Origin: Sinohyriopsis cumingii
Taxonomy: Eukaryota > Mollusca > Bivalvia > Unionida > Unionidae
Assembly: GCA_028554795.2 (NCBI GenBank)
Contig: CM068838.1
Span: 130,170,928-130,234,927, forward strand
Direction of reading: 5' to 3'
Length of the DNA: 64,000 bases
The notes under the pieces are model-generated. The model was not told the DNA's origin. It did no database searches and was given only the letters and a program-made list of their open reading frames with translations. The first letter of the stretch is position 1; every line of letters starts with the position of its first letter. Positions 45,724 to 63,874 of the stretch are shown one piece after another. Position numbers and translations under genes: made by a program.

Positions 45724-45761
45724 TCTCTTTTCGAGAAATATGGCTGGCCCTGAAAAGGGCC
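45724..45761 (-). terminator. histone-type 3' processing signal, copy 1
   Basis: The minus strand reads GGCCCTTTTCAGGGCC at 45,746-45,761: a 6-bp stem with a UUUC loop that fits the metazoan histone mRNA consensus GGYYYUUUUCARRRCC. It is followed by AGCCA (canonical ACCCA) and then the purine-rich CGAAAAGAGA (45,724-45,733), in the place of the U7-binding histone downstream element. It starts 16 nt after the stop codon of the 126-codon gene at 45,778-46,158. Confidence 0.85.
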
Positions 45762-45777
45762 TTTGGGTTTTCTTCTT

Positions 45778-46158
45778 CTAATTTCTTCTTTTCCTCCACC
45801 AACTTCTTATTTTATCTCCAACACTCTTTCTCTTCTTTTTTTTCTCCTTCTCTTCTTTCTTCTCTTCCTCCTCTTCTTCTTTCTTCCTCTTCTCATTTTC
45901 CTCTTCTTTTTCAATTTTTTCGTTCCATGTTCTTATTCTTATCTTTTCCTCTTCATCCTCCTTCTCCTCCTTGATCTCTTTCATGACACCACTAATCTTG
46001 TCCTTTGCTTTCCTTAAATTGTTAATTTCCATCTTTACACGATGGGGACTATAGGAATAATGGTCTTCAACGAGTCTTATTAGCATCTGTTCCATTATTC
46101 CTAAGTTGTCTAAAACGTCTTGCAAGGTTTGTAATTTGTCCATTTGGTTTGACGCCAT
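45778..46158 (-). CDS. small Glu/Lys-rich coiled-coil protein, tandem unit 1
   Basis: A 126-residue protein of unknown function. The N-terminal 30 residues have spaced Leu/Ile residues (MDKLQTLQDVLDNLGI) that look like a heptad coil. Residues of about 55-115 are an almost uninterrupted run of Glu and Lys, and the C-terminus is strongly basic (SWWRKRRN). The ATG at 46,158 follows a TATA-like box at 46,208-46,217. The gene ends in a histone-type stem-loop. Its neighbour at 46,575-46,898 has the same plan (leucine-patterned N-terminus, then Glu/Lys-rich segment), so the two are probably diverged duplicates. Simple composition makes homology hard to prove. A role in virion core, chromatin or host interaction is possible but unsupported. 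Confidence 0.7.
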   Translation of the reverse strand: MASNQMDKLQTLQDVLDNLGIMEQMLIRLVEDHYSYSPHRVKMEINNLRKAKDKISGVMKEIKEEKEDEEEKIRIRTWNEKIEKEEENEKRKKEEEEEEKKEEKEKKKKRKSVGDKIRSWWRKRRN

Positions 46159-46207
46159 CTTCTTTTTTATTCTTTGCAGAATGGTTTGAACGACGAATAC
46201 TGTGGGT

Positions 46208-46315
46208 TCTTATACGAAAAGCGCGTACGTGAAGGAAAACATCCCCCTAAAACATAAAATGGATCTTACCTAGATGATGACCAAACATCGCGCGGACGTG
46301 AAGGAAAACATCCCC
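46208..46315 (-). promoter_or_regulatory. promoter cassette of unit 1: TATA box and two copies of the 26-bp element
   Basis: On the minus strand a TATA-like CGTATAAGAA lies at 46,208-46,217. Upstream of it (higher coordinates) is the element GGGGATGTTTTCCTTCACGT plus ACGCGC at 46,221-46,246, and a second copy at 46,290-46,315. The element occurs in the same position in front of the next two genes. ATG is about 50 nt further downstream at 46,158. Confidence 0.75.
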
Positions 46316-46459
46316 CTACTTTCTCATTTCATATAATATAACCCTAACTATACTCTCCACATTTGCTAAGAAACCCATAATCTACTATTCACACAAACAT
46401 ACCTGAGCTCTTACAAACACACAAACACATACACTTCCACTATTAATAAAGAGTTAGTG

Positions 46460-46465
46460 TTTATT
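46460..46465 (-). terminator. AATAAA poly(A) signal downstream of stem-loop 2
   Basis: Minus-strand AATAAA about 65 nt beyond the histone-type stem-loop at 46,530-46,545. It lies inside a block repeated at about 47,229-47,350 and could be a fail-safe polyadenylation site. Confidence 0.5.
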
Positions 46466-46507
46466 TTCACACTACTCTACCTACACACATTGGCAAATTA
46501 ATAGTTA

Positions 46508-46545
46508 TTTCTTTTCTAGAGTATTGGGTAGCCCTGAAAAGGGCT
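46508..46545 (-). terminator. histone-type 3' processing signal, copy 2
   Basis: The minus strand reads AGCCCTTTTCAGGGCT at 46,530-46,545 (6-bp stem, UUUC loop), then ACCCA at 46,525-46,529, then purine-rich TAGAAAAGAAA at 46,508-46,518. It starts 29 nt after the stop of the gene at 46,575-46,898. The stem differs from the strict histone consensus only in its outermost pair (A-U instead of G-C). Confidence 0.85.
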
Positions 46546-46574
46546 GTTTTGTTTGGAACTTCATGGACACCTGG

Positions 46575-46898
46575 TTAATGGTGGCACCTTCCAGGCCTGG
46601 CGCCACATACACATCTTATCCCCCAGTTACTTTTTACCTTTTGGGGGGAGAGAGCAGAGGCAGGATATGTTGCTTCAGAATCCCAATTTTCACTCTCTGG
46701 GATTCTGAAATTTTTTCTTCTCTCCTTTTCCTCCTCTTCTTCTTTATATCTTCTTTCCTCCTCTTCTTTTTTTCTTCTTTCCTCCTCTCTTATCCTTCCC
46801 TCCTCGACAATGGCTTCAGCGGCCAGTTCATTTAATATGCGCCTGGCATATTCCAGATGCACATGAAGTTCCAACAGTTTCTCCAGTCTCGTGTTCAT
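46575..46898 (-). CDS. small Glu/Arg-rich coiled-coil protein, tandem unit 2
   Basis: A 107-residue unknown protein. Residues 1-30 show a leucine-spaced helix (RLEKLLELHVHLEYARRILN) similar in pattern to unit 1. Residues 31-65 are Glu/Arg/Lys-rich, and the tail is Cys-containing and unlike the other units. ATG at 46,898, about 50 nt below a TATA box at 46,947-46,957. A histone-type stem-loop follows the stop. The promoter, 3' signal and part of the upstream DNA are shared with units 1 and 3, so the whole transcription unit was duplicated, not just the coding part. Confidence 0.65.
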   Translation of the reverse strand: MNTRLEKLLELHVHLEYARRILNELAAEAIVEEGRIREEERRKKEEEERRYKEEEEEKERRKNFRIPESENWDSEATYPASALSPQKVKSNWGIRCVCGARPGRCHH

Positions 46899-46946
46899 TT
46901 TTGGTGTTGATCAATCAACAAGGGTAGCTGGACTGCCTAACTAGTT

Positions 46947-47061
46947 TCAATTTATACTGAAAGCGCGGACGTGAAGGAAAACATCCCCTGAAAACATAAA
47001 ATTCATCTTACCTAGATCATGACCAAGAAACAACAACGCGCGGACCTAAAAGAAACACTCG
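46947..47061 (-). promoter_or_regulatory. promoter cassette of unit 2: TATA box and 26-bp element plus decayed second copy
   Basis: Minus-strand GTATAAATTGA at 46,947-46,957 is preceded by the shared element at 46,963-46,988 (plus strand gcgcggacgtgaaggaaaac, then atcccc). A decayed second copy lies at about 47,038-47,061. The DNA between the two copies ('aaaacataaaat', 'tcttacctagat', 'atgaccaa') is also shared with unit 1. Confidence 0.75.
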
Positions 47062-47259
47062 CTCACTTTTTTATGCTACCCATCACTTCAATAGACTATC
47101 CACATACGCAAAGCAATCCAATCTAACCCAAAATATATACCTCAAACAGCCCAAAAAACAAACATCATTTTAATCTACTATCCACACCAACCTACTTTAT
47201 CACTTACAAACACAATCACACAAACTCATACCCTCACATTTTTTAAGAAAGAGTTAGTC

Positions 47260-47265
47260 TTTATT
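47260..47265 (-). terminator. AATAAA poly(A) signal downstream of stem-loop 3
   Basis: Minus-strand AATAAA about 65 nt past the histone-type stem-loop at 47,330-47,345, at the same offset as in unit 2. Confidence 0.5.
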
Positions 47266-47307
47266 TTCACACTACTCTACCTACACACATTTTCAAATGG
47301 ATCGTTA

Positions 47308-47345
47308 TTTCTTTTCTAGAGTATTGGGTAGCCCTGAAAAGGGCT
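47308..47345 (-). terminator. histone-type 3' processing signal, copy 3
   Basis: Minus-strand AGCCCTTTTCAGGGCT at 47,330-47,345, then ACCCA at 47,325-47,329, then TAGAAAAGAAA at 47,308-47,318. It starts 24 nt after the stop of the gene ending at 47,370. It is identical to copy 2, and the similarity extends into the flanks (about 46,450-46,552 versus 47,229-47,350). Confidence 0.85.
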
Positions 47346-47369
47346 GTTTTTTTGCTATGGCATTCTTTT

Positions 47370-47496
47370 TTAGTTTCTAAGAATGCGATGTCCTCTGAGG
47401 ATAGACTTTCTGGCGATAGATCTGCTTCTTCGGAAAGAGAAGAAGAATTCTTTGGTGTCGATACGACAAGCGACAAAGCCTCTGTCAGCTTCAGGT

Positions 47497-47540
<44 letters not shown>

Positions 47541-47642
47541 CTGCTGTCTCTGAAGTCTGTACTTCTCTGTCCATTCTTCTTTCTCCCTGTTCATTTCTTC
47601 TCTGAAGGGCTCTTCTATCAGGTCTTCAGTGATTTTTAACAT
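47370..47642 (-). CDS. small Gln-rich protein, tandem unit 3, possibly 5' disrupted
   Basis: An unknown protein of 90 residues if translation starts at the ATG at 47,642. It has an acidic/basic N-terminal helix, a polyglutamine tract of about 17-19 residues (about 47,495-47,555) and a basic C-terminus (RKSILRGHRILRN). The open frame extends upstream to 47,705, where an in-frame TAG (47,706-47,708) separates it from an 11-codon leader that starts with ATG at 47,741. The leader ATG sits in the position expected from the TATA-like box at 47,791-47,801, so the TAG may be a recent nonsense change. It shares promoter and 3' signal with units 1 and 2. Confidence 0.55.
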
Positions 47643-47790
47643 TCTCACATTCTCTATTTCTTCTGGCTTCGGTATCAGACTGTGTCTGACCCTATGCAAA
47701 TTCACCTAGGCTTCGTTGAGCTTAGCTAGTTTGGAGCACATCTTCTTAGGAGGATGAGTCGACAATGGATGGCTAGACTGGGAACAACCC

Positions 47791-47832
47791 GGTTCTTAAA
47801 GTGAAAGCGCGGACGTGAAGGAAAACATCCCC
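47791..47832 (-). promoter_or_regulatory. promoter cassette of unit 3: TATA-like box and 26-bp element
   Basis: Minus-strand CTTTAAGAACC (47,791-47,801) is a weak TATA box. The shared element lies at 47,807-47,832. Spacing between element and box matches units 1 and 2 to within a few bases. Confidence 0.65.
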
Positions 47833-47949
47833 ACACGGTTTTCGAGCCGCAACGTTCATGAGAGGGATAGTAAGAAATGAAAGAGCATCAATCCAACATT
47901 CTTATAGCTAAACAAACCACAAAGTCATTTTTTTCAAAACACAACATTT

Positions 47950-47955
47950 TTTATT
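47950..47955 (-). terminator. poly(A) signal AATAAA for the late gene block
   Basis: Minus-strand AATAAA about 90 nt after the protease stop codon, in an AT-rich 3' region (47,840-48,045). It is the first clear poly(A) signal after the run of structural genes, so it may serve the whole block. Confidence 0.6.
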
Positions 47956-48045
47956 CAAAAATCACTTAACACTAAACAACAACTCTAACATTTTTAACAA
48001 TAATCCAACACTATAACATCAAACATTTTTTTCTTCAATTACTAA

Positions 48046-48606
48046 CTACTTTAAACAGGGCTGACAACGTTGTGAATGAAATTGTGATTTCCACTGTTGG
48101 AAATCATTAGGCCATTGATGGACACTACGTTTCCTAGCTTGAGACAAAAGATAAGCATAATGGTCACAAAACCATCGATCTACTTTCACATCGTTTCTAG
48201 CAGAAGAACGAGGATCGAAATGAGTCACTAAATGTTCTAAGGAATAGCCCAGGCTGCGATGATGCAGAAAATACACACAGTACTGTCCACACACCAAGGA
48301 ATCTGTGCCTTGTAATTTCACATTATTGAATCGGGTGGTTTGAGCATTTCTTCTCATAAAGTCAATGATATCGTCTTCCAAAGGCGGCAATCCATACGAA
48401 TCGAAATATTCCACACATCCTTCTTGAGGAAAGTAGACGGCTACCCAGTGGGTTCCTGGGAGATGACTGTCGTCCGTGTTGATCACGTAAGCTTGATGGT
48501 CTTTAGGTTTGCGATGAGGGAGTTCATCTTTAGCACAGACGACAGGATTCCAAGAAGACGTATACGAACTGTGGTTCAAAAGGTAATAAAGTTCCCAGGT
48601 ATCCAT
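48046..48606 (-). CDS. PRO: adenain-like cysteine protease (capsid maturation protease)
   Basis: A 186-residue protease of the adenovirus-type (Ulp1/C5-like) fold used by Polintons to process capsid proteins. Catalytic residues can be placed by motif: His53 in GTHWVAVYF, Asp69 in VEYFDSYGL (Glu/Asp position of adenain), Gln99 in KLQGTDS (oxyanion hole) and Cys106 in LVCGQYCVYFLHH. Spacing between these matches adenain closely. ATG at 48,606 lies 19 nt downstream of the previous gene's stop. No TATA box is visible directly upstream, so it is probably expressed from a longer transcript. Length and motifs are complete, with no sign of decay. Confidence 0.93.
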   Translation of the reverse strand: MDTWELYYLLNHSSYTSSWNPVVCAKDELPHRKPKDHQAYVINTDDSHLPGTHWVAVYFPQEGCVEYFDSYGLPPLEDDIIDFMRRNAQTTRFNNVKLQGTDSLVCGQYCVYFLHHRSLGYSLEHLVTHFDPRSSARNDVKVDRWFCDHYAYLLSQARKRSVHQWPNDFQQWKSQFHSQRCQPCLK

Positions 48607-48625
48607 TGTTTTGTGTTTGTTTTCT

Positions 48626-49132: not shown

Positions 49133-49138
49133 GGCTTT

Positions 49139-50458
49139 CTAATAATTTAGAATGACTTCTCTCAAACTGTTGATTTCTATGGTATTATCGAATTCTGCAT
49201 ACAGGATGACGTTCACTGTCTGTTTCAGTTCTTCTGCAAACTGAAGTTCCACACGAATCTGGCCGGATTTTATAGGGTGGAAATGTCCTTCGTCGCTGCC
49301 TTGGTCTGGAGTGAAATCAAAACCCCACAAAGCATAGCCTCCTGCATATTCATCGTAATCAATGCCGTGACTGGTGTTGGTTCCTAACTGGCCGGTGGCT
49401 TCGTACAGGGACAAGTACGATCTCAAGTAATTTATGTTTGGGGGCTCAAAGCTAGGTTCGAAAGGTCGGGTACACAAGGTCTTGCCATCACGACTGACTT
49501 CGATTTTCTTTACGTTGAAGTGATGAAAGTTGAAAGGATTTTCAGCGAAGGCTCCGTTGAAGGCTGCATTCGAGACCATACCAAGGATCAAACGTTTGGG
49601 TAACTGTCCTTGGAACAGATGATCTTCGGTTATGGATTTCAGTCCAGTAGAAATGGTGAACGTTTTCACTTCCACACGTCGTATGGGATACTTGGCGGTC
49701 GTTCTGCTCAACGTCTGACTGATGTCATTTCCCACTTTAGGTAACACTTCCACGCGTCGTACGTAGAGTCTGGCCACTTCGATTTGGCTTTTAGGATTGC
49801 CAGTCTTAGTAGCATCAGCATTAGCCAACAAATGGAAAGCGGCACTGCTACGATTCAGTCTCAGGCGCACATTGACACCGTTCAGCAAATATTTCTCTTG
49901 CAACCACATGTCCAAATGCAAACGATCCATCAGTTCTAAACTCTTTTTGCCTGTGATTCTGTTTCGTCTTGCCACAAAGCCGTCATTGTCTTCTGCGTCA
50001 GCTATCTTAAACTTGCCCGCTTCGTCATCTGCCCACAGCACACAGGCATTGAGATGACTTGTCTTGGCATCTGGTCCGTACGTCAAGAGATTTTCCAGGT
50101 AGGCACGGTAAGGGTAAGTATCCATGCTGCTGCTAACCAGTTTGTTATTCAAGTACAAGTCCACTGAGCTGAACAAGGAATGCATGAAATTGTTGACGGG
50201 AGCTATAATCTCAGCGGCATCTACTCCACCATTATCCTGATCTAGAACTTGGACTTTCAAGTACAAGTAACTGCTATTCAGATCGATGTAATCTTCGGGC
50301 TGTCCTTTGATTTCAAACTCGATGGGAGCTGAGGCTGTCAATGAGGAGACGGGATGAAATTCCACCCATTGGGATTCTTGCATCGTCATCATGGTGGGGG
50401 GCATGGCAAACAGATCCAGTTCCGTCTTGGAACAGGCGCAAGACTCTCGGTGCATCAT
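49139..50458 (-). CDS. MCP: major capsid protein (double jelly-roll, Polinton type)
   Basis: A 439-residue protein that forms the hexon-like capsomer. It resembles the Polinton capsid family often annotated in animal genomes as 'F54H12.2-like'. The signature segments are visible: an N-terminal SSLTASAPIEFEIKG and DYIDLNSSYLYLKVQVL strand pair, NNFMHSLFSSVDLYLNNKLV, a central YLLNGVNVRLRLNRS, ARLYVRRVEVLPKV, and a C-terminal GQIRVELQFAEELKQTVNVI strand pair. The ATG at 50,458 is preceded by another in-frame boundary 19 nt from the pX-like gene. The frame is complete, which supports recent activity. Assignment rests on motif memory and position between the penton-type and protease genes. Confidence 0.9.
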   Translation of the reverse strand: MMHRESCACSKTELDLFAMPPTMMTMQESQWVEFHPVSSLTASAPIEFEIKGQPEDYIDLNSSYLYLKVQVLDQDNGGVDAAEIIAPVNNFMHSLFSSVDLYLNNKLVSSSMDTYPYRAYLENLLTYGPDAKTSHLNACVLWADDEAGKFKIADAEDNDGFVARRNRITGKKSLELMDRLHLDMWLQEKYLLNGVNVRLRLNRSSAAFHLLANADATKTGNPKSQIEVARLYVRRVEVLPKVGNDISQTLSRTTAKYPIRRVEVKTFTISTGLKSITEDHLFQGQLPKRLILGMVSNAAFNGAFAENPFNFHHFNVKKIEVSRDGKTLCTRPFEPSFEPPNINYLRSYLSLYEATGQLGTNTSHGIDYDEYAGGYALWGFDFTPDQGSDEGHFHPIKSGQIRVELQFAEELKQTVNVILYAEFDNTIEINSLREVILNY

Positions 50459-50477
50459 TTTTTGTTGTTGCTGTGTC

Positions 50478-52262: not shown

Positions 52263-53375
52263 TCACTTCTTCTTTTTATAGTCGATGACTTGCGAAGCGT
52301 CGATCCAAGAATCGAAACTGGGTGGATATCCTTTCCAACGTACTTTGACTTCTTTGACACGTCGTTTGCCCACTTTACGGGTTCTGCGTTCGAGAATGCT
52401 TTCGATGTCGTACACGTCGTCTTCTTTTTTGGTGACACGTTGTAACTCGGGCAAATAAAACGTTCCTTTGAGTACTTCTCCGTTAATGTCTTCCAATTTA
52501 TAGACGGCAGGATGACGGCCATGCACTCGTCCAGTGACGCGAAACAATTCGGTCGTCCAGTTAGGTAAGTAACCTTTGTCGAAAGTGCGTTTGGTTTTGC
52601 CAATGCGCACCCAATCTCCTACGGTCAACTCTCCACTTTTCTTGGGGACAGCCCTCGTCGGGGACGTACCAAACAGGCGCTCAAAGACCAACACTTCGTT
52701 CTCGGGGGTCACGTCTTGCGGGGCACGTCCGATGCTTCGATGGTAAGATTGGTTGTACGCTTGCACCAGGTGCGGTAAGATGTCGATGTACTTCAGAGTG
52801 TGGTGATGCGTAAAATATTTCCACATGCGTTCTTTCAAAGTGCGTTGAAAACGTTCCACGATGCTGGCTTTGGTTTCGGGATTCTCGGTGGTAAAAAAAT
52901 GAATGTCACGTTTCTTTAATTCTTTTTGGAAAGCTTGGTTCAGAAATTCGGTACCTTTGTCCGTTTGCCATCGAAGAGGGTGACGACCGCTTTGTTTCAA
53001 CACCCGTTGCAGGGCTCGCACTAACTCGCTGCTCGATTTGGAAGTCAAGGGCACGACCCAAGCAAATTTGGAAAAGACGTCGATGACACAAAACAAATAT
53101 TTGTAGCCACGATTGTAGCTGGCCAAATGAGAGACATCGGCTAAATCGGCTTGCCATTGATGATCGATGCCTTCCACTCGGGTGCGACTTCTGGCAAACT
53201 TGCGTCGAATGGGTTTGTGTAAAGTGTAGGTAGCTTGTTCTTGTAACCATCGTTGCACTTGAGGTAAACGGAGACTTTTCAGTCGCGTTTTGGCAGCACG
53301 ATACAATTTTTGAACTCCTGCGTAACCTGCAGGATGCGAGGGATCGTAGTAAATGCTGGCTAAGACTTTTTCCAT
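52263..53375 (-). CDS. INT: retroviral-type integrase with C-terminal chromodomain
   Basis: A 370-residue DDE integrase, the enzyme that inserts Polinton DNA. Core residues: Asp77 in HQWQADLADV, Asp139 in RWQTDKGTEF and Glu174 in ASIVERFQRT, giving a D-D-(34)-E arrangement. A region with VGDWVRIGKTKRTFDKGY resembles the GPY/F-like C-terminal DNA-binding segment. Residues of about 320-368 form a chromodomain (YDIESILERR, then VRWKGYPPSFDSWIDAS), a module that can steer integration toward methylated-histone chromatin in other elements. It is complete and undamaged. The last codons overlap a TATA-like sequence (52,272-52,281). Confidence 0.95.
   Translation of the reverse strand: MEKVLASIYYDPSHPAGYAGVQKLYRAAKTRLKSLRLPQVQRWLQEQATYTLHKPIRRKFARSRTRVEGIDHQWQADLADVSHLASYNRGYKYLFCVIDVFSKFAWVVPLTSKSSSELVRALQRVLKQSGRHPLRWQTDKGTEFLNQAFQKELKKRDIHFFTTENPETKASIVERFQRTLKERMWKYFTHHHTLKYIDILPHLVQAYNQSYHRSIGRAPQDVTPENEVLVFERLFGTSPTRAVPKKSGELTVGDWVRIGKTKRTFDKGYLPNWTTELFRVTGRVHGRHPAVYKLEDINGEVLKGTFYLPELQRVTKKEDDVYDIESILERRTRKVGKRRVKEVKVRWKGYPPSFDSWIDASQVIDYKKKK
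52272..52281 (-). promoter_or_regulatory. TATA-like box at the integrase 3' end
   Basis: Minus-strand TATAAAAAGA lies in the last integrase codons. A start site 30 nt downstream would fall just below the two-TM gene's ATG (52,257), so it might drive the penton gene instead, or be only a lysine-codon coincidence. Confidence 0.3.
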
Positions 53376-54594: not shown

Positions 54595-54610
54595 GGCCTT
54601 TTTTATACTG
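54595..54610 (-). promoter_or_regulatory. TATA box overlapping the stop codon of the lysine-rich core gene
   Basis: Minus-strand CAGTATAAAAAAGGCC includes the TAA stop (54,603-54,605). An initiator-like ATCAGTG lies about 30 nt downstream (about 54,573-54,579). The ATG of the small core-type gene is at 54,544, giving a short leader. Confidence 0.75.
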
Positions 54611-55568
54611 GAACGCGTCGCCACTGATTGTCTTTACGTTTTATCAGTTTGAGGACAGGCATGACACGTCGTGCAGGGGTACGTAACGGACTAAATCGAG
54701 CCAGTTCTTCTTTGGACAAATCCAGTAAACTTTGTAACATGCCCGATCTTTCTTGGACTTTGATTTTGGGAGAAGGTACTTTGTGAGCAGCAGCCACTGC
54801 CGCTAAATTGGAAGGTCCTGCCACTGGGGAAGTTCTTTTGGGGGTCATCAACGGAGAAGTTCTTGGTGTGATCAACGTCTCCAAGTACTCTTCAGTTCCT
54901 GGTGACATCAACGGAGAAGTGGACAAACGTGAGGCTGCCGGAGACGCAGTCACCGCTGTGGCAGGTCGTGGTTTGCGAGTGTAAGGTTGCGTCCTGGCCG
55001 AAGTGCCTCTCTTGCGACTAGTTTTCTTCTTCTGTGGACTTTTCTTTTTCTGAGGACTTTTTCTCTGTTTCTTTTTCTGGGGGCTTCTTTTCTTTTTCCG
55101 GGGTGATGGTGGTGGTGTCTGGTAAGAGGAGGGTCCTGCCACTGGAGAAGTTATTCTTCTTGGGGACTTGGTCTTTTTCTTTTTCTTCTTGGGGCTTCGT
55201 TGGACTTTTGTCTTGGGGATAACTTTGGGGGCATTAGGATCCCATCTTAAGAGTGAGCGAATGATGACCCCTCCTAGAGTACCGCTCCCTCCAGGTTTCA
55301 AAATGATTTGTTTTTTGGTTTGAGTGTCGATGCGGGGATCGGCCAGTTGGACCAAAGCGACTTTGTTTCGATCGAAAAAGCGTTGGGTTTGATGAGGAAT
55401 CTGAATGATTCCTTGGAGTAATTGACGTGCCGTCACCGTGAACCATCGTAAGACTTCTTTGAGACTAGCTTCTAAGACACGGGCTCGTGTTTGTGGATCT
55501 TTTTCTCGACTGATGCCATACAAGGCACGAATCAATTTGACGGGAAGATGCGACTGAAGGGACGTCAT
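54603..55568 (-). CDS. lysine/serine/proline-rich core-type protein, paralogue of the small core gene
   Basis: A 321-residue protein, ATG at 55,568. Residues of about 30-110 follow the same layout as the downstream small gene: ASLKEVLRWF, LLQGIIQIPHQTQRFF, DTQTKKQIILKPGGSGTLGG, IIRSLL, aligning with ASKEVIDTV, VLKGTIPLSKHQKQCL, IRQKKKMLVQRGG and GPILKGVL of the neighbour. Residues of about 120-200 are a Lys/Ser/Pro tract with repeats such as SPRKKKRSPQKKKQRKSPQK, resembling histone-H1 or protamine tails, and repeated TSPLM(S/T)P motifs follow. DNA condensation in the virion is a reasonable inference. It has its own TATA box at 55,605-55,614. Confidence 0.7.
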   Translation of the reverse strand: MTSLQSHLPVKLIRALYGISREKDPQTRARVLEASLKEVLRWFTVTARQLLQGIIQIPHQTQRFFDRNKVALVQLADPRIDTQTKKQIILKPGGSGTLGGVIIRSLLRWDPNAPKVIPKTKVQRSPKKKKKKTKSPRRITSPVAGPSSYQTPPPSPRKKKRSPQKKKQRKSPQKKKSPQKKKTSRKRGTSARTQPYTRKPRPATAVTASPAASRLSTSPLMSPGTEEYLETLITPRTSPLMTPKRTSPVAGPSNLAAVAAAHKVPSPKIKVQERSGMLQSLLDLSKEELARFSPLRTPARRVMPVLKLIKRKDNQWRRVPV

Positions 55569-55622: not shown

Positions 55623-56366
55623 TCATGGGGAGTGAAATGAAGTCGAGGACGGAGACGTGTACAGGACAGGCCCTCCGTCTTGGCACCAGTGGTGAAACAA
55701 GTGGGTACGAAATGGCAAATCCTCGGGAGTCGTAGGTTTCAAATCGACGAGTAAATAGGCGTGTGGCGTTTGAGTGGCATCGTCGTACGCCTGAGTCAGC
55801 CAAGGCGTTCCTAACTGTTTGGCTAAGACTTGCACTTGCGATTTATCTCGAGGGCTTTTAAACAAGACCACGTAATGCGCATTGAGACTGATGGTGCGAT
55901 GGGCTTTACTTTGTTGAAACAAATTTTGGGTGATGTAAACGACACTGGCATTACGGTGATGCCCTTTGCGCGTGAACCACAATTTAATTTCTTCTTCGTC
56001 TTCTCCTAACATGTCGTCGAAAATGACCAAATGGGTTTGACGGGAATCAGAGACGATGCCGTCGTCTTCTTTAGGAATGCCTTCCACAAACACGATGGAA
56101 TCGCCTTGACTTTCTCGCAAGAGGTTGTACGCCGATTGCCACTCTTTGTAACACCACACGATCCGTTGAGGGGGCCGATCGATCAAATGATGTTTATGTT
56201 CGATCAAACGTTTGACGAATTCGGTTTTGCCTGAACCGCTAGGTCCAGCAATGAGCATGTTAAAGGGATGGCGAAGATACAAAGCCTCCCAACTGGCACG
56301 ATCTAAGTGTTCGTCGATGACTTTGACAGTAGAGGAAGAGGGAGCAGAGACAGCAGAGGTAGCCAT
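55623..56366 (-). CDS. ATP: FtsK/HerA (A32-like) genome-packaging ATPase
   Basis: A 247-residue P-loop ATPase that packages viral DNA into capsids. The Walker A motif is GPSGSGKT (residues 41-48 from the chosen start) and Walker B is HLVIFDDMLGE. The region VVYITQNLFQQSKAHRTIS matches the sensor/arginine region of A32-like ATPases ('ITQN'). The first ATG of the open frame is at 56,366. It fits a TATA box at 56,412-56,423 with a short leader. The frame is intact. It belongs to the core Polinton set with capsid, protease, integrase and PolB. Confidence 0.93.
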   Translation of the reverse strand: MATSAVSAPSSSTVKVIDEHLDRASWEALYLRHPFNMLIAGPSGSGKTEFVKRLIEHKHHLIDRPPQRIVWCYKEWQSAYNLLRESQGDSIVFVEGIPKEDDGIVSDSRQTHLVIFDDMLGEDEEEIKLWFTRKGHHRNASVVYITQNLFQQSKAHRTISLNAHYVVLFKSPRDKSQVQVLAKQLGTPWLTQAYDDATQTPHAYLLVDLKPTTPEDLPFRTHLFHHWCQDGGPVLYTSPSSTSFHSP

Positions 56367-57000: not shown

Positions 57001-57215
57001 GGAGGTGGTAAGTACTGATCGTAAAGAGTCCACAAAGAATCGGCTGGTAAACGAAATCCCAGAAAACAAGTCACTAAGACACACACCACTTGTCGTCCAA
57101 AATTGAATGGATACAGTTCTTGTAATAATTGATGGTAATGATCCACGGTTTGAATATGGTCATTGAGTTCCTTCCACGGAATCTGTTGGATGACATGTGA
57201 CATAAACCGTGGCAT
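56991..57215 (-). CDS. small hypothetical viral ORF
   Basis: A 74-residue frame from ATG at 57,215: HVIQQIPWKELNDHIQTVDH, then a more hydrophobic part and LPADSLWTLYDQYLPPPWP. A TATA box at 57,222-57,232 is very close to the first ATG, so the true start could be lower or the message could serve the following gene. No family recognised; it could be part of a spliced gene. Confidence 0.4.
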   Translation of the reverse strand: MPRFMSHVIQQIPWKELNDHIQTVDHYHQLLQELYPFNFGRQVVCVLVTCFLGFRLPADSLWTLYDQYLPPPWP

Positions 57216-57678
57216 GGCAGCCTGTTTTTATAGTCTCTTTTTTTCGGATGCAATAGACGTACTTTCTAGCCAGAGATCTTCGTTCTCCAGTAGGGAATCT
57301 AAATCTTGCATACTGTAACCGAAACGTCAGAGTTCGTTTAGGTGTTTCCTCTTCCTCTAAGTAGATTCCACGTAAAATATGTTGGTAATCCTTTAACTTG
57401 TCTTCCTCAATGCATTGCACTAGGTGAATCTCGAAGTAACCATAATCATGAACATGTCGATCATTAGCGACCTCAAAGTTTTGAACAATGTCTGACCATT
57501 GAAAGAATTTCTGACGAATCAGTTCTCTTATACCCTTCAGGTACCAGTGGTTAAAGATCTGGTGACGTATCGGATGCAATTGTTCTTTACGTTTCACTTG
57601 TATTTTGACCAGCTCTCGGTAAATGCGTTCTCTCAACTCCACAGGCAAAGCACGAATGTTCTCTTGTAAAGTATCCAT
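57160..57678 (-). CDS. tandem paralogue A, N-terminal F-box-like motif
   Basis: A 172-residue protein whose first 50 residues are almost identical to its upstream neighbour (57,691-58,146), beginning MDTLQENIRALPVELRERIY. The LPVELRERIYRELV segment resembles the start of an F-box (LPxELxxxI), which would suggest ubiquitin-ligase recruitment, but the match is short. The middle regions align with more substitutions (NHWYLK, IVQNFEV versus IDQRPPG; RKYVYCIRKK versus CKEYISCVRPK). The C-terminal 20 residues are an extension not found in the paralogue, and they overlap the next small frame. Confidence 0.6.
   Translation of the reverse strand: MDTLQENIRALPVELRERIYRELVKIQVKRKEQLHPIRHQIFNHWYLKGIRELIRQKFFQWSDIVQNFEVANDRHVHDYGYFEIHLVQCIEEDKLKDYQHILRGIYLEEEETPKRTLTFRLQYARFRFPTGERRSLARKYVYCIRKKETIKTGCHATVYVTCHPTDSVEGTQ
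57222..57232 (-). promoter_or_regulatory. TATA box inside the 3' end of paralogue A
   Basis: Minus-strand TATAAAAACAG within the coding end of the 57,160-57,678 gene. It would drive one or both of the small genes at 56,659-57,215. Confidence 0.5.
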
Positions 57679-57690: not shown

Positions 57691-58146
57691 CTAAATCCTC
57701 TTTGGTCTGACACAAGAAATGTACTCTTTGCACAAACATGGTTTCACTTCAGTGTCGAATTTAAATCGTTGAGTCACTAATCTACACATTACAATTCGTT
57801 CAGAAGTTTCCTCTTTCACCAAGTTGACATTGTGTTTAAGATGTTGGTAATTCGTTAACTCTTCCTCTGGAATTCGATGCAGTACGTTTACAATGTAGTA
57901 GATAGAATCGTCAATACCAAACCATTCCTTTTTATAACCAGGAGGTCGTTGATCAATGTCTGTCCAATGGAACACTTTCAATTGAATCAGTCCTTGTATA
58001 GCCTTCAGGTACCAGTGGTTCAAACACCGGTGACGTATCGGATGCAATTGTTCTTTACGTTTCACTTGTATTTTGACCAGTTCTCGATAAATGCGTTCTC
58101 TCAACTCCACAGGCAAAGCACAAATGTTCTCTTGTAAAGTATCCAT
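57691..58146 (-). CDS. tandem paralogue B, N-terminal F-box-like motif
   Basis: A 151-residue protein. The N-terminal 40 codons (58,025-58,146) match paralogue A nearly base for base, while the remainder has diverged at protein level. It has the same F-box-like LPVELRERIYRELV. No other domain. It lies between the BIR gene and paralogue A, 12 nt from the latter, with only weak TATA-like sequence upstream. Strong identity limited to the 5' end suggests gene conversion, or strong constraint on that part. Confidence 0.65.
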   Translation of the reverse strand: MDTLQENICALPVELRERIYRELVKIQVKRKEQLHPIRHRCLNHWYLKAIQGLIQLKVFHWTDIDQRPPGYKKEWFGIDDSIYYIVNVLHRIPEEELTNYQHLKHNVNLVKEETSERIVMCRLVTQRFKFDTEVKPCLCKEYISCVRPKRI

Positions 58147-58174: not shown

Positions 58175-58912
58175 TCAATGTCTCGGTCCCACTAAAGGTA
58201 AGTAATGACAATTCGGTGACCATCGAGCATGTTCTACGTAGGCCGAATCTTGCGGTTCCCAGTGGTGAAGTGACACACCGCAACTGAAGCACTTGACTTT
58301 ATCTCCTTCGCCCAAGTAGAAAAATCCGGCTCTGGCTAATTCTTCGGGGGTCGGTCCTCCCAGATACTTTGGCCATTTTCCTTTGAACGATTGAAGACGA
58401 TTTTCAAAGTCGCAGTATTCCGACAAACGCACAGGAAACGAATATTCGTTTTTCACAGGTTCGTTTCGATGAGGGTTGGGTGACAGGAACAGGAGTTTGC
58501 TCAGGGCTGGATGACATCCGTAGGGGGGTAGACGTGAAGGTGAACATTCCCCTTTAAACCCGGTAAAATGTCTAAAAGGACGAGCGGCATCGCTTTCGCA
58601 TCCCTCAGGTTTGACACGCACAGCATCACTTTCCATGACAGGGGCAGTGAGAACAAAGTTCCCATGATGCTTTACGGCATCGCTCAGGTCACAAGGTACA
58701 GCATCGTATCCATCGCAAGGCTCACAATCGCACTCATCTGCAAACTCCGTTACGCAATTACAATGGTAACCACATGGACAATCGCAGTTTCCTTCCGGAC
58801 ATTTTCCGTCGCAATGCCTGGGTCTTATCCATCCAGTATTAGTCACACTAGAGGAAGATACAACTTTTTTACAATCCCCAAACTGGAACGATGTCTCTTT
58901 CAAAGTATTCAT
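58175..58912 (-). CDS. BIR-domain (IAP-like) protein
   Basis: A 245-residue protein with one C-terminal BIR zinc fold. C208, C211, H228 and C235 give C-x2-C-x16-H-x6-C, preceded by RLQSFKGKWP and a GFFYLGEGDKVKCFSCG core, as in inhibitor-of-apoptosis proteins. The N-terminal half is a Cys-rich segment (HCDGKCPEGNCDCPCGYHC, residues of about 33-51) of unknown fold. No RING domain is present, so ubiquitin-ligase activity is not expected. BIR proteins in other large DNA viruses restrain host cell death; this is the likely role here, by analogy. It has a TATA box at 58,966-58,980 overlapping the end of polB. Confidence 0.9.
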   Translation of the reverse strand: MNTLKETSFQFGDCKKVVSSSSVTNTGWIRPRHCDGKCPEGNCDCPCGYHCNCVTEFADECDCEPCDGYDAVPCDLSDAVKHHGNFVLTAPVMESDAVRVKPEGCESDAARPFRHFTGFKGECSPSRLPPYGCHPALSKLLFLSPNPHRNEPVKNEYSFPVRLSEYCDFENRLQSFKGKWPKYLGGPTPEELARAGFFYLGEGDKVKCFSCGVSLHHWEPQDSAYVEHARWSPNCHYLPLVGPRH

Positions 58913-58957: not shown

Positions 58958-61900
58958 CTAGGGTTCCTTTTTTATATACAGACCAATACCGACGTGACCG
59001 TACGGTAAGGTGAAATGATTGGGAAGTCTCACTCGCTTCTGGTACACGATTTGATAGACTTTTTCCAAGGGTCGACTGACGATGTGGTGAGTGGGTAAAC
59101 GTACAATCTTGTTCGGTTGATAGGTGGTCACTTTAAAGTTTCCATCCTCTCCCGATTGCAAGGCTTCTTTCAATACCCCAAAGTTGACCACTCGACTGGT
59201 ACGATAATTCAGAGTCAGTCCTTTCACTTTGCACGTCGTGTGTACTTCTCCTTGTTTGTCACGGTATTCGTAGCCGTAATTTTTGGGACCGCCACTGACG
59301 AAACTTAGAATCTTGTCGTCGGGATGCTCGTCTGTCCAGGCTCCTAAACGGTCTCCTTCGATGCTAGGGTGATGTTGAATCGGGTGATGGATGTAAATGC
59401 AACTGTCCGTGTCAAAGTACAGGACGCGTTCTTCTAACAGTTCTAAAGCTTCGTACAATTTTAAGCGAGCATGGGCTGTCACGTAAGCCGCAATGATGAC
59501 ATTTCCAAAAGGGTCGTCTTGTACAAAGTCCAGATCTTCTTCGTAATTGACCAAGATCAAATTCTCTCGAACGACGTCCACGTGTTTCATGTATTTGGTT
59601 TTGTCGTGAATCATCTGGAAGTAGCGGGAAGGTTCTGTCAAATATTCCGTCTTGGGTAAACACGGTCGTTGTGCCATTTTACCCCACAAGCAATTTAACA
59701 TCACTTTGGCAAACGATCGCCTGCCTTCGTTTTTCTCGATGTGGTCTAAAGTGATGCCTTCTTGTTCGTAGTATTTCTCTTTGAATTGTATTTGGTCTTC
59801 GGGAGTGTGACACCAGGAAGGATAGCCGCTGGCTTCTTGCTTCAGTTTCAAAAAGGCATCCACGTAGTCGGCGAAAATGCCTTTCTGCGTGGGGTCACCC
59901 TTGCGGTATTGTTGTGTCTTGGGAAAGTGGCAAATTTCGTACACTTCTAACAGTTGGTATCCCATGTCCAGAGCTTTGAACAATTCTACGCTGACCCAGG
60001 TTCCCGTCAAGGCCCGTTCTTCCTGGCTGTGATGGCAAGGTTGGTCTTGGTTGCACGTTTCGGCACAAGTACGGCACAAGGGAAACATCAGTTTGCCTTG
60101 ACAATGGTGAGGTAAGACGGGATGGTATAGGTTCGTGGGAGGCAAAACTTTACACTTGATCAAGCCTTCGTATTGTCGAATGTTTTTCAGGTCGATGTGT
60201 TCCGTCAGCAATTGCGGGTGCCCTACAGGAAAGCGACAATATTTGCACACGTAGGGATACAGCGAACACACGTCCAAGTATTTGATTTCTTCTCCTTTCT
60301 CTTCGTCGGCTTGGTACAGCAAACAGGTGGCATTGGTCCTTCCTCCGTACAAACTATCCCTCGGGTTCAGCGGGTCCGTGAACTGGTAACTTTCCACGAG
60401 GCGTTTAAACTCGGGATCGGTTTTCATACGGTGATCGTACTCGTGTTCCCACATTTCCACCACTTGGTATCCTTGCTGTTCTAACTTTAGGCGTCGCTGA
60501 CAAGTGTCCTTGTACAAGTCTTCCATGGTTCGTTGCAAAAACTGATTTTTAGTGCCACGGTCAGGGTAACAGACGGGACATCCGTGAAATAAGCAACCGT
60601 TAAACTCGTACACGATCTTGGGGTTTTCTAAGTCCCAGCCATCGACCGAATACGTTCCGATGGTCTTTTCGCCTCCTCCGTTGCGGGCATGCTGAATCCA
60701 CTTGTCTTCCTTGTCGCACAAGTAATGTAACCAGCGTAGGGCTTTGACCGAGTATTGACGTTTGACAAAGTGGGTCGTTTGAGGACTGATGACAGCCACG
60801 GTGTTTTGAGGCATGAATCGTTGGCGGTACACTAAGGAACACGCTTTGGCAATGGTGCAAGCTTCTTTCAAAGGATCGACCCCTCCGTGTTCCATGAACA
60901 GTTCTCGAAATTTTCCACAGCAACGCCGTAAAATGTCCACGTCGGAACGACAATACTTTAGCATTTCTTCCTGAAAGTCGAAAGGGTCCGAGGCGTGAAT
61001 CTGGTACCAAGCGTAGAAAGCTTCTTGTTGTTCGGTACGCATGTTGTCGGGGTCGTAATAGTGAGCCTCTGGTAAATGGGGTAGAACGACGTGTTGATTG
61101 GCTTCCGTATTGAAAAAGTGTGGAAAGTACCCTTTAGCCATTTCTGTCATTCCAAATGTTTTAGGCATTCGACTCAAAGGCATGGCCAAATAGCTCATCG
61201 AATCTTTAAACTGTACTTGTCCCACTTGCATGAAAATGATTTTGGCTCCGTTCAAAGTCACTTTAGGACGCTCGGTGCCTTGTTCCGTATAGTATCTGAG
61301 AAGAAACTGTCCATCGTATCCGGAGAAATTGTGAGCCATCACTGTGGCATGGCGATGACAATCTCGGTAACGTTCGATGTCCTCTTGGCTCCATGTCTTG
61401 TCGACGGGGTCTAAGACCCATTGGGCAAAATCGGCTAACGTGTTTGGTCCCCGAAAGATTTTTTCACGCCCTCCGGGAATCTTGCTGCAGTGAGGGCAAT
61501 GACTGAAGATAGGTTCTTGAATGCACTTCTCGCACGCTCGATGAGCCACGCAGAAATTAGGAATGTGAATGCCGGTTTCTTGCATGCATTCGAAATCGAA
61601 AAAGATGAAATTGCCTTTCTTCTTGTGACCGTCCTCTTTCTCTGGTGGGGGTTGGTATTTTTGCACGTAACATTGGTGTTCCAAGTCCACGATGTGGTGA
61701 CAAATGTGACATTTTTTCTTTCCTGAACATACGTGTGCCTTGGTATTATTGGTACGTATGACTTGTTCACACGTAGAGCACAATCTCAGCAGTTGACAAG
61801 CGCATTTCTTCTGTGAACCTTGCGTTTTCAGATGTTGTTGGTAACAGGTAGGGCTGACAAACGTGCGCAGACAAGTGGAACAAGGCACTGGTTCTTCGCT

Positions 61901-63007
61901 CAGACAGGGTGAAGAGGCCAAACATCCTGAGCATTTCCATCCACAATGTTTGTGTTGCTCTCGATTATTATAACCATGGTCACATTTCTCACAGTAATAT
62001 CTGTATACCAGGAATCCAGTGATACTGGTAATGGTATCGAAATGGTCATCGTGATGATAAAGGTGAATGTATTTTCCGTCCTTAAAGTCTTGGCCTCGAA
62101 ACAATAGAGGCCCGCGCATTTCTTGAGGGTGCACTTTCAAGGTGTAGCGTGGAGCTAGGACATCTTGCAATTTTTGCATCTCGGGAATGCCACAGGGTGT
62201 GTCTTTGGGCAATCCGGCTTGTTGTAACAGGAGTTCTGCTTCGTTTCGTTGTTTGGCTCGGTCGGAACGTTGAATAGTGTCCCAGGTTCTTTTCCATTCT
62301 ACCGTGTCGTTCTTGTTGGCATAGGTTCGTCCCACCACGATGGCACGGGCTAAACACATCTGGTCATGAGGGTTGTTAATTCGAACGAGACTCTTTTTGG
62401 TGTTGCGAAGGTCGTCCACCAATAACATCTTTTTGCGTCCTGTCCCTTGAGGAGGAGAGACGTGGGTCATGTCCAGTGTGGCTTTACCATCGGTGATGTC
62501 AAACTGATCATTAGATTGTTGTACGTGTTGAATCTTGTCCATGACTTTGGAAGCAGTCAATTCTGCAGGGGTGCTAAACTCGATCCAAACAGGGGATTTC
62601 AAACCGTCATGTTGTATGGAAAGTCTCAAGCGATCGTCTTCTTTGGGTTGACATTGTCGCTTGAGTGCAGTGAGCAAAGAATCCCACACCTCGGTGATGA
62701 ACACTTCTGCTTTCTCTAACGGCACTTCAGCCTTGAAATCTTTAAACTTCACCGTGTATTTGTAAGCCGTGGTTCTAAATTTTCTAGAGGAGCGCTTTTC
62801 CGTCTCTCGAATGGAATAGTACTTTTCAGGGTTGACTAAGGGTGGTGAACTTGGTTTAGAGGCTTCGGATTCTGGTTCACTCATGTCCTCTTCAAAATCA
62901 CTGGCATGAATTTGTGCCAAGATTTCAGCCCTGGTACGAGGCGATAAATCACGTTTCTGCCTTTTACTTTCTTCTTCTTTTTTCTTGAATGAATGGGATC
63001 GTTTCAT
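58958..63007 (-). CDS. POLB: protein-primed-type family B DNA polymerase
   Basis: A 1,349-residue polymerase that replicates the element. Exonuclease motifs: Exo I FDFEC (Asp471, Glu473), Exo II HNFSGYDGQF (Asp565) and Exo III YCRSDVDIL (Asp689/Asp691). Polymerase motifs: A LDVCSLYPY (Asp912), B KVMLNCLWG (Lys1101, Asn1105) and C YFDTDS (Asp1199, Asp1201). All catalytic residues are present. The N-terminal 330 residues are basic to mixed. A Cys/His-rich zinc-finger cluster follows at about 338-445 (CEKCDHGY, CSTCLRTF, CHICHHIV), typical of Polinton polymerases. ATG at 63,007 lies behind a TATA box at 63,052-63,061. The complete 4-kb frame shows little decay. Confidence 0.97.
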   Translation of the reverse strand: MKRSHSFKKKEEESKRQKRDLSPRTRAEILAQIHASDFEEDMSEPESEASKPSSPPLVNPEKYYSIRETEKRSSRKFRTTAYKYTVKFKDFKAEVPLEKAEVFITEVWDSLLTALKRQCQPKEDDRLRLSIQHDGLKSPVWIEFSTPAELTASKVMDKIQHVQQSNDQFDITDGKATLDMTHVSPPQGTGRKKMLLVDDLRNTKKSLVRINNPHDQMCLARAIVVGRTYANKNDTVEWKRTWDTIQRSDRAKQRNEAELLLQQAGLPKDTPCGIPEMQKLQDVLAPRYTLKVHPQEMRGPLLFRGQDFKDGKYIHLYHHDDHFDTITSITGFLVYRYYCEKCDHGYNNREQHKHCGWKCSGCLASSPCLSEEPVPCSTCLRTFVSPTCYQQHLKTQGSQKKCACQLLRLCSTCEQVIRTNNTKAHVCSGKKKCHICHHIVDLEHQCYVQKYQPPPEKEDGHKKKGNFIFFDFECMQETGIHIPNFCVAHRACEKCIQEPIFSHCPHCSKIPGGREKIFRGPNTLADFAQWVLDPVDKTWSQEDIERYRDCHRHATVMAHNFSGYDGQFLLRYYTEQGTERPKVTLNGAKIIFMQVGQVQFKDSMSYLAMPLSRMPKTFGMTEMAKGYFPHFFNTEANQHVVLPHLPEAHYYDPDNMRTEQQEAFYAWYQIHASDPFDFQEEMLKYCRSDVDILRRCCGKFRELFMEHGGVDPLKEACTIAKACSLVYRQRFMPQNTVAVISPQTTHFVKRQYSVKALRWLHYLCDKEDKWIQHARNGGGEKTIGTYSVDGWDLENPKIVYEFNGCLFHGCPVCYPDRGTKNQFLQRTMEDLYKDTCQRRLKLEQQGYQVVEMWEHEYDHRMKTDPEFKRLVESYQFTDPLNPRDSLYGGRTNATCLLYQADEEKGEEIKYLDVCSLYPYVCKYCRFPVGHPQLLTEHIDLKNIRQYEGLIKCKVLPPTNLYHPVLPHHCQGKLMFPLCRTCAETCNQDQPCHHSQEERALTGTWVSVELFKALDMGYQLLEVYEICHFPKTQQYRKGDPTQKGIFADYVDAFLKLKQEASGYPSWCHTPEDQIQFKEKYYEQEGITLDHIEKNEGRRSFAKVMLNCLWGKMAQRPCLPKTEYLTEPSRYFQMIHDKTKYMKHVDVVRENLILVNYEEDLDFVQDDPFGNVIIAAYVTAHARLKLYEALELLEERVLYFDTDSCIYIHHPIQHHPSIEGDRLGAWTDEHPDDKILSFVSGGPKNYGYEYRDKQGEVHTTCKVKGLTLNYRTSRVVNFGVLKEALQSGEDGNFKVTTYQPNKIVRLPTHHIVSRPLEKVYQIVYQKRVRLPNHFTLPYGHVGIGLYIKKEP
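58966..58980 (-). promoter_or_regulatory. TATA box of the BIR gene, within the polB 3' end
   Basis: Minus-strand TGTATATAAAAAAGG encodes the last PolB residues (LYIKK). The polB stop is 6 nt downstream. A start about 30 nt further down gives a leader of about 35 nt before the ATG at 58,912. Confidence 0.7.
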
Positions 63008-63051
63008 CTTGAAAGCAAAAAGTCAAATGACTTAAGTTCAAACACCATAAA

Positions 63052-63088
63052 CTACTTTATAGTCATAGCAGACCAGCGTATATAAAAG
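63052..63088. promoter_or_regulatory. divergent promoter between polB and the zinc-knuckle gene
   Basis: A minus-strand TATAAAGTAG (63,052-63,061) faces polB, whose ATG is at 63,007. A plus-strand TATATAAAAG (63,079-63,088) faces the zinc-knuckle gene, whose ATG is at 63,147. Only about 17 bp separate the boxes, so the two genes probably share control. Confidence 0.8.
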
Positions 63089-63146
63089 GGTGTGTGTCTT
63101 GTCCTTTTACTATTCATTTCACTCTCAAGCCGAAGAGACTAACCAG

Positions 63147-63603
63147 ATGGAACGTTTCGTCAGAGCTTTGCGAGGGGTCATTAGAAAATTCTCTTCAGAC
63201 CAGCCTACGGACTACTCTCCTTCCTTTCGAGATAAAAGTCAAGATACTTGCTATATCTGTCAGAAGAAAGGGCATTGGTCTTCAGAGTGTCCAGACCGTC
63301 AAAAAAGAAAAAAAAACAGGGGCTAAAAAAGACAAAAGTCAAGATACCTGTTATTATTGTAAAGAAAAAGGACATTGGTCTCCAGATTGCCCAAAAAAGA
63401 AACAAGAGGAGTCAGAAGAAAAGAGGGATTCTTCAGAAGAAGAGATGGATTCTTCGGAGGAAGAGAGGGATTCTTCTGAGGAAGAAAGAAGACAGGTGAA
63501 GAAAAAGAAACAGGAGAAAAAAAGAAGAAGGGAAGAAAGCGAGGAGGAAGAAGAAGAGGAAAAGAGTGTGACGGTGAAGAAATTCAAAAAACAGAGAGAC
63601 TAA
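63147..63603 (+). CDS. double CCHC zinc-knuckle protein, halves in different frames
   Basis: The only plus-strand gene of the element. The first frame (63,147-63,326, 59 codons) has a basic N-terminus and a knuckle CYICQKKGHWSSEC (C-x2-C-x3-GH-x4-C). A second frame, open to the stop at 63,601-63,603, carries a second knuckle CYYCKEKGHWSPDC, then a Glu/Ser-rich tract with repeated DSSEEE and a Lys/Glu-rich end. The frames overlap across A6-G-A9 (63,301-63,316) and differ by one base. Zinc knuckles bind single-stranded nucleic acid, so a role in replication or packaging is plausible. A one-base indel, an assembly error in the A9 run, or frameshifting could explain the offset. Confidence 0.7.
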
Positions 63604-63836
63604 ACAAGGAGAAAAGAAGAAATCAATGAACTTTTGATTAAAGTGTTGTGATGTGAATTGTGAATTGGATTGTAAAAAATGGAGAAAAGAATAAATGAAT
63701 GATATAAGGTAAGAGTCTTTGAGTTTTGATTTTAAAATAAGAAGCTACAGTCACGCACTCATACACAGACACGTACTATAAGGGTAAAATGGGTGAGTTA
63801 TTTTTTTTTTTGAGTTATTGGCAAATTGAAATTGTA
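63604..63836. other. non-coding stretch between zinc-knuckle gene and stem-loop 4
   Basis: It contains the AATAAA at 63,690 and T-rich sequence near 63,801-63,811. Sequence near 63,813-63,840 ('ggcaaatt', 'atttctttt') resembles the region beside stem-loop copies 2 and 3, so the related block extends about 30 nt beyond the signal. No inverted copy of the 44-bp repeats at 45,503-45,670 was seen. Confidence 0.55.
63690..63695 (+). terminator. poly(A) signal AATAAA of the zinc-knuckle gene
   Basis: Plus-strand AATAAA about 87 nt after the stop at 63,603. In contrast to the three minus-strand genes near 46-47 kb, this gene has an ordinary polyadenylation signal and no stem-loop. Confidence 0.65.
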
Positions 63837-63874
63837 TTTCTTTTCGAGAAATGTGGGTGGCCCTGAAAAGGGCC
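63837..63874 (-). terminator. histone-type 3' processing signal, copy 4
   Basis: Minus-strand GGCCCTTTTCAGGGCC (63,859-63,874), then canonical ACCCA (63,854-63,858), then purine-rich CGAAAAGAAA (63,837-63,846). It fits the histone mRNA consensus exactly. It lies 27 nt after a minus-strand stop codon at 63,902-63,904, the same geometry as copies 1-3, so a further gene of the same type probably enters from beyond the window. Confidence 0.85.

Follow-up and report, generated by a model that had tools for sequence, protein, structure and literature searches.

Histone-type 3' end signals at five small genes of a mussel Polinton and their predicted processing by the host

Why would small genes of a virus-like element end in a signal that belongs to histone messages? 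The question is raised by a Polinton in the genome of the freshwater mussel Sinohyriopsis cumingii. The element begins within, and runs past the right edge of, the stretch of DNA analyzed here, which we call the window (64,000 nt; assembly GCA_028554795.2, contig CM068838.1, positions 130,170,928 to 130,234,927 of the forward strand). By the standard account, the histone stem-loop is a 3' end reserved for replication-dependent histone genes. In that pathway, SLBP binds the stem-loop, the U7 small nuclear ribonucleoprotein (snRNP) pairs with a downstream element, and the transcript is cut a few nt past the stem and receives no poly(A). The resulting mRNAs are stable and translated while SLBP is present. 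Our sequence comparisons make it highly probable that the host SLBP/U7 machinery makes the 3' ends of five small Polinton genes through this signal, and suggest that these accessory genes use the DNA-replication-linked expression programme of the cell.

The signal at the ends of five small genes

The five genes are cc1, cc2, cc3, gA and gB. Positions beyond the window are given in the right flank locus, L017, in which position p equals window position 63500+p. The genes and their units are as follows.

45778-46158, minus strand: cc1, 126 aa, rich in K and E
45746-45761, minus strand: site 1 stem-loop, GGCCCTTTTCAGGGCC, 16 nt past the cc1 stop
45726-45736, minus strand: site 1 downstream element, TCTCGAAAAGA
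46575-46898, minus strand: cc2, 107 aa
46530-46545, minus strand: site 2 stem-loop, AGCCCTTTTCAGGGCT, 29 nt past the cc2 stop
46510-46520, minus strand: site 2 downstream element, TCTAGAAAAGA, the same as in the host H3 and H2B genes that were read
47370-47642, minus strand: cc3 open reading frame (ORF), 90 aa from an internal ATG
47330-47345, minus strand: site 3 stem-loop, AGCCCTTTTCAGGGCT, 24 nt past the cc3 stop
47310-47320, minus strand: site 3 downstream element, TCTAGAAAAGA
63902-64000, minus strand: 3' part of gA, a 189-aa gene at L017:402-971 (window-equivalent 63902-64471)
63859-63874, minus strand: site 4 stem-loop, GGCCCTTTTCAGGGCC, 27 nt past the gA stop
63839-63849, minus strand: site 4 downstream element, TCTCGAAAAGA
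L017:1191-1421, plus strand, outside the window: gB, 76 aa, divergent partner of gA
L017:1444-1459, plus strand, outside the window: fifth stem-loop, at the gB end, 22 nt past the gB stop

Each viral unit consists of a 16-nt stem-loop (6-bp stem, loop TTTC), a 9-nt spacer opening with A[C/G]CCA, and the element TCT[A/C]GAAAAGA. The first-pass annotation, made from the letters of the window, had placed four such stem-loops on the minus strand, with ACCCA or AGCCA behind the stem, a purine-rich element beyond it and an onset 16-29 nt after a stop codon. All four were recovered by both the Rfam covariance search and a pattern search, every part is present at each of them, and the measured gaps (16, 29, 24 and 27 nt at sites 1 to 4) agree with the range given. 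The single orientation proposed for the sites holds within the window, where 4 of 4 are on the minus strand, and breaks down beyond the right edge, where the fifth stem-loop is on the plus strand. A reading of site 4 as geneless, with a transposon beside it, is rejected, as the right flank shows the 3' part of gA there.

With the Rfam model of the histone 3' end (RF00032, gathering score 34), site 4 (63835-63879) scores 41.2 bits and site 1 (45721-45766) 35.6 bits. A 20-nt pattern built from the sites occurs four times in the window compared with a mean of 0.00 across 100 shuffles, and a general histone stem-loop pattern is found four times on the minus strand and never on the plus strand, at an expectation of 0.01 per simulated window. 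RF00032 and pattern searches of the window copy of the Polinton gave no match beyond the four window sites, so the replication and virion genes of this copy are without the signal. A 111-bp block, 93% identical, is common to sites 2 and 3. Within the downstream element, sites 1 and 4 have a second hairpin, which sites 2 and 3 do not form likewise.

That the genes concerned are not histones, as first proposed, is upheld by Pfam: matches up to E 1 for cc1, cc2, cc3, gA and gB include no histone family. The coiled-coil character of the small proteins is a judgement from composition only. The protein database holds one homologue of cc1, from the unionid mussel Sinanodonta woodiana (86% over 88% of residues 1-66), and no homologue of cc2 residues 1-40.

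The host histone genes provide a direct comparison. They are arrayed in tandem with a repeat unit of 8.3 kb, on contig C14 at 13.10 Mb and on many small contigs (at least 150 matches). At the 3' end, an H3 gene and an H2B gene, told apart by reading the translated ends, have the stem-loops GGCCCTTTTTAGGGCC and GGCCCTTTTCAGGGCC with RF00032 scores of 35.9 and 38.2 bits, and both have TCTAGAAAAGA 9 nt past the stem, the spacing of the viral sites. Host and viral stem-loops agree at 15-16 of 16 positions for sites 1 and 4 and at 13-14 of 16 for site 2. For sites 1, 2 and 4, the downstream element agrees at 10-11 of 11 positions and the spacer at only 4-6 of 9, and directly after the stem most viral copies have ACCCA, whereas the two host genes have ACACA and ATACA. 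Compared with these two host genes, the viral sites carry the host's own downstream element at the host spacing, and the SLBP/U7-type arrangement proposed from the window alone is thereby matched by the host's stem-loop, downstream element and spacing. A published account describes a palindrome in bivalve histone mRNAs and purine-rich elements in some of them (PMC6210712).

Recurrence among genomic copies

An RF00032 search of the mussel's own genome (2.90 Gb, 1138 contigs) gave 75 rows on many contigs, all above the gathering score. They are 75 scored matches out of 589,472 first-look candidates and form neither a ranking nor a census; the list omits the 41.2- and 35.6-bit sites of the window and the histone ends of 35.9 and 38.2 bits, though all of these pass the score. 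We examined 74 of the 75 rows, leaving out C5:20851421. Among the rows listed, all 74 loci examined are Polinton copies, recognized by Polinton proteins and/or a terminal inverted repeat (TIR), with one locus (L076) assigned by its TIR alone and another (L011) by proteins without a TIR. The stem-loop is thus not scattered over random host sites among these rows, a distribution that the first-pass annotation had named as speaking against a function. Five histone peptide signatures were found at none of 75 loci, i.e., these 74 and the window's own flank. Two right-hand ends on contig C8 (L026 and L027, at 1.90 and 1.91 Mb) have like orientation and layout and lie 9.7 kb apart; the pair is a tandem or shortened element copy.

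Because a stem-loop search favors loci with stem-loops, recurrence is best read at gene ends that were located by protein similarity and whose own stem-loop was not the one that fetched the locus. There are 81 such ends, after leaving out 53 self-fetched ends, matches stopping more than 15 residues before the C-terminus and ends near a locus edge. The intact unit is present at 67 of them (cc2 17/21, cc3 5/5, gA 22/28, gB 23/26, cc1 0/1), and at the remaining 14 the stem-loop is still present with small changes. The motif is therefore not lacking at the corresponding gene ends of close copies, which was another outcome held to be damaging at the outset.

Flank similarity leads to 154 places, locus-fetching ones included. 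Six standard pairs are kept in 138 of them, and in 137 the stem is directly followed by ACCCA or AGCCA. At the outermost position, the pair is G-C in 122, A-T in 24, G-T in 2, A-C in 2, C-C in 1 and a gap in 3. The A-T pair is the form of the cc2 and cc3 units of the window, and probably reflects few evolutionary events rather than 24.

Conservation, competing explanations and predicted processing

Identities were taken against the window copy for 50 copies of gA, 53 of gB and 21 of cc2. For gA, gB and cc2, respectively, the stem-loop is 98.6, 99.3 and 97.0% identical, the spacer 82.3, 85.5 and 77.0%, the downstream element 90.5, 92.7 and 96.7%, and the 3' untranslated region (3'UTR, -25 to -9) 79.4, 81.5 and 72.0%. 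Ungapped flank identities from a separate comparison agree with the trend of a stem-loop better kept than its flank. As the gA coding sequence near the 3' end is itself 97.7% identical, the gA stem-loop contrasts with its 3'UTR and spacer only.

The ratio of nonsynonymous to synonymous divergence (dN/dS) against the window copy has a median of 0.06 for cc1 (dS 1.56, 13 pairs), 0.10 for gB (dS 0.99, 50 pairs) and 0.15 for cc2 (dS 0.58, 19 pairs). Saturated dS values were excluded, as were pairs with fewer than 8 differences; all pairs use a common reference and lack independence, and dS values near or above 1 are rough. Judged by these ratios, cc1, gB and cc2 are under coding constraint.

These figures bear on the possibility that the signal is a passive hitch-hiker, i.e., a histone 3' end that was captured once and copied with gene duplications without having a function. 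One origin for all units is likely, considering the block common to sites 2 and 3 and the TIR shared by sites 1 and 5. We nevertheless find a functionless copy highly improbable: the stem-loop is 97-99% identical over 124 copies where the 3'UTR is at 72-82%, the synonymous sites of gB and cc1 are far diverged by the medians given above, the spacer that separates the stem-loop from the downstream element drifts, and the outer pair has changed on both sides between the cc2/cc3 units and the other units.

The stem-loop might also have been kept for another use, such as a decoy for SLBP/U7, a signal for mRNA stability or packaging, or a DNA-level feature of the element ends. Two of the five units are at the inner TIR edge, and the many copies could titrate SLBP. 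The other three lie away from the TIR, however, all five sit 16-29 nt past a stop codon on the coding strand, and a U7-type element is kept at host spacing, which would be needless for a DNA feature or a plain SLBP decoy. Such uses are therefore very unlikely to account for the signal.

Several results weigh against SLBP/U7 processing of the viral messages. Sites 2 (46505-46550) and 3 (47305-47350) score 31.0 bits each with RF00032 (E 6.4e-5), which is below the gathering score, and the cc3 frame read from the promoter-proximal ATG (47741) meets a stop at its 12th codon. In gA and gB, the downstream element is roughly matched in conservation by stretches further along (gA +40 to +59, 87.5%, and +80 to +105, 89.9%; gB 91.1 and 93.0% over the same stretches), and +60 to +79 of cc2 also reaches 94.3% compared with 96.7% for its element. 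This lack of any special conservation of the element in gA and gB lowers the case for host processing and raises that for passive copying. The units of cc1 and gB sit in the TIR, which is conserved for other reasons, so that gA and cc2 offer the cleaner stem-loop evidence; for gA, in turn, the median dN/dS is 0.44 at a dS of 0.07 (50 pairs against the window copy). For duplexes with the 5' end of human U7, the fraction of shuffles that pair equally well is 0.118, 0.08 and 0.318 for sites 1, 2 and 4, so that the viral sites do not clearly exceed shuffled sequences. All copies examined came via a stem-loop match, so copies without a stem-loop could be missed. Six distant Polinton relatives, with major capsid proteins (MCPs) 24-43% identical and contigs filed under bacterial metagenome-assembled genomes, have no RF00032 match at the gathering score (6 of 6) or in a permissive search (5 of 6, with L007 left out). 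The trait consequently does not look general to Polintons, although the absence is only partly informative because several of these contigs end soon after the adenovirus-type protease (adenain). Lastly, AATAAA is found in the window 104 nt past the cc3 stop and 109 nt past the cc2 stop.

The AATAAA signals would fit dual ends, where stem-loop and poly(A) ends are both made and the stem-loop adds an S-phase isoform rather than the main end. Human H2AFX is a precedent, with both isoforms described (PMC7807067). Across the copies, AATAAA or ATTAAA within 144 nt past the stem-loop is not conserved (cc2 0/21 and cc3 1/5, both in copies outside the window; cc1 4/25, gB 7/53, gA 10/50). The window signals weigh less for this reason, and we regard dual ends as unlikely.

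If the viral messages are processed as histone messages are, the viral stem-loop would be bound by host SLBP and TCT[A/C]GAAAAGA would be paired with U7 snRNP, with the cleavage complex cutting a few nt beyond the stem, near ACCCA. The products would be short viral mRNAs with a stem-loop end in place of poly(A). Since mRNAs of this type persist and are translated while SLBP is there, expression of the viral genes would fall mainly in S phase, or in eggs and early embryos with their abundant histone mRNA machinery, and this timing would coincide with the availability of DNA replication factors to the element. We lean slightly towards a wider reading, in which an endogenous virus lineage put its accessory and probably early genes under the host histone mRNA programme, such that an SLBP/U7 switch would time host-manipulation genes while replication and virion genes stay outside it.

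If true, this would be a viral expression strategy for which the literature searched holds no description, and a natural class of non-histone clients of the pathway. Non-histone genes of a virus-like element carry the histone end at five genes, kept over deep divergence and matching the host element. They would supply natural non-histone substrates of SLBP and U7 in many sequence variants, with which one could test if a stem-loop is enough by itself to couple expression to replication, and they might help to explain how S phase or the germline is sensed by an integrated virus. A further suggestion is that viral transcripts of this kind could go unseen in poly(A)-selected RNA-seq.

The Polinton and its relation to known systems

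The regions upstream of the small genes contain the following features.

46205-46246, minus strand: promoter-like repeat (holding CCTTCACGTACGCG) followed by TATAAG, upstream of cc1
46947-46988, minus strand: promoter-like repeat followed by TATAAA, upstream of cc2
47791-47832, minus strand: promoter-like repeat upstream of cc3

A repeat with CCTTCACGT[C/A]CGCG occurs in four copies on the minus strand upstream of cc1, cc2 and cc3 (at 46205, 46274, 46947 and 47791) and is a candidate for a common promoter element of these stem-loop genes; the pattern has 0 matches in IMG/VR. The genes gA and gB diverge from a 219-bp stretch (L017:972-1190, window-equivalent 64472-64690) with GATTGG/CCAATC motifs and TGACGTCA, and within it gB has TATAAA 52 nt upstream of its ATG. 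This stretch resembles the divergent CCAAT/TATA layout of histone gene pairs.

The Polinton spans 19,721 bp, from 45492 to window-equivalent 65212, and both ends open with AGTAGTGAAGGGGGCC. The left TIR has the site 1 stem-loop at its inner edge, and the fifth stem-loop mirrors it in the right TIR; as the unit is thus present in both TIRs, the terminal outward-facing genes cc1 and gB share one 3' end module. Also within the TIR, at 45503-45669, is a 44-bp tandem repeat (GGGCCACTTTACGGACAA...) in 3.8 copies. The remaining features of the element are listed below.

45486-45491: left target site duplication AACGGT (6 bp); right copy at L017:1713-1718, outside the window
45492-45769: left TIR, 278 bp, 98.9% identical to the right TIR at L017:1436-1712 (window-equivalent 64936-65212)
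48046-48606, minus strand: putative adenain (Pfam Peptidase_C5, 16.3 bits, below the cut-off of 21.3)
49139-50458, minus strand: MCP, 1203 sequence homologues
52263-53375, minus strand: integrase (rve) with chromodomain (Pfam)
55623-56366, minus strand: packaging ATPase, Pox_A32/FtsK-like (Pfam)
58175-58912, minus strand: BIR-domain (IAP) protein (Pfam)
58958-63007, minus strand: family B DNA polymerase (PolB) of organellar and viral type, DNA_pol_B_2 (Pfam)

An adenain homologue directly follows the MCP in 5 of the 6 distant relatives. Among the 120 MCP homologues listed, those with animal names are mostly bivalve and one carries PF21738, which we take to denote a double jelly-roll major capsid protein; a comparison of the MCP with PDB sequences gave no match. 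On the minus strand at 54603-55568, a 321-aa protein of pI 11.8 has repeated SP(Q)KKK motifs, presumably like those of histone H1 tails, and is a candidate genome-condensing core protein. At about 63147-63605 on the plus strand is a gene whose product has two CCHC motifs resembling zinc knuckles, together with an acidic tail; the gene is split over two reading frames and either broken or spliced. Two tandem duplicated ORFs on the minus strand (57160-57678 and 57691-58146; 88% over 209 nt) have no Pfam match at E 0.01. In the host flank, 18307-18493 forms an imperfect long inverted repeat, aligning with its own complement at 76% over 192 nt.

Scans of IMG/VR with a single PolB, a single MCP and an MCP alignment found no relative. 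Two stem-loop patterns matched one contig each there, in both cases judged chance: L001, phage-like by its ORFs, and L008, also phage-like, where the match lies inside a long ORF and scores 21.3 bits. Another stem-loop pattern gave 0 matches in IMG/VR, and neither the MCP against phage records nor window positions 46500-47900 against plasmid records gave a match. In the literature on Polintons, adintoviruses and SLBP with viruses or transposable elements, no histone-type 3' ends were found, most subscription papers being outside the search.

Compared with the metazoan replication-dependent histone 3' end (RF00032; SLBP/U7 snRNP), the viral units are alike in the six-pair stem, the four-base loop, the ACCCA-like flank, the purine-rich element at host spacing, the short ORFs and a stem-loop soon after the stop. 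They differ in belonging to viral accessory genes that are dispersed in mobile elements and not in a histone array. As a Polinton/Maverick (Adintoviridae-like), the element is typical in its TIRs and 6-bp duplication, PolB, integrase with chromodomain, packaging ATPase and capsid gene, and has a putative adenain-like protease. It departs from the type in its five small genes with histone-type 3' ends, for which the six distant relatives gave no match.

Three other systems are comparable. Human H2AFX is alike in that both end types are possible, but it is a histone variant, and the viral poly(A) signal is not conserved (PMC7807067). SLBP is described as a host factor linked to SARS-CoV-2 frameshifting, which likewise ties a virus to SLBP, though through ribosomal frameshifting and not an mRNA 3' end (PMC12166091). 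The 'Histoid' of adomaviruses and tailtomaviruses is another case of animal DNA viruses borrowing from histone biology, and a term search of that paper did not find 'stem-loop' (PMC11071296). While those viruses borrow a protein, the Polinton described here would borrow an RNA end.

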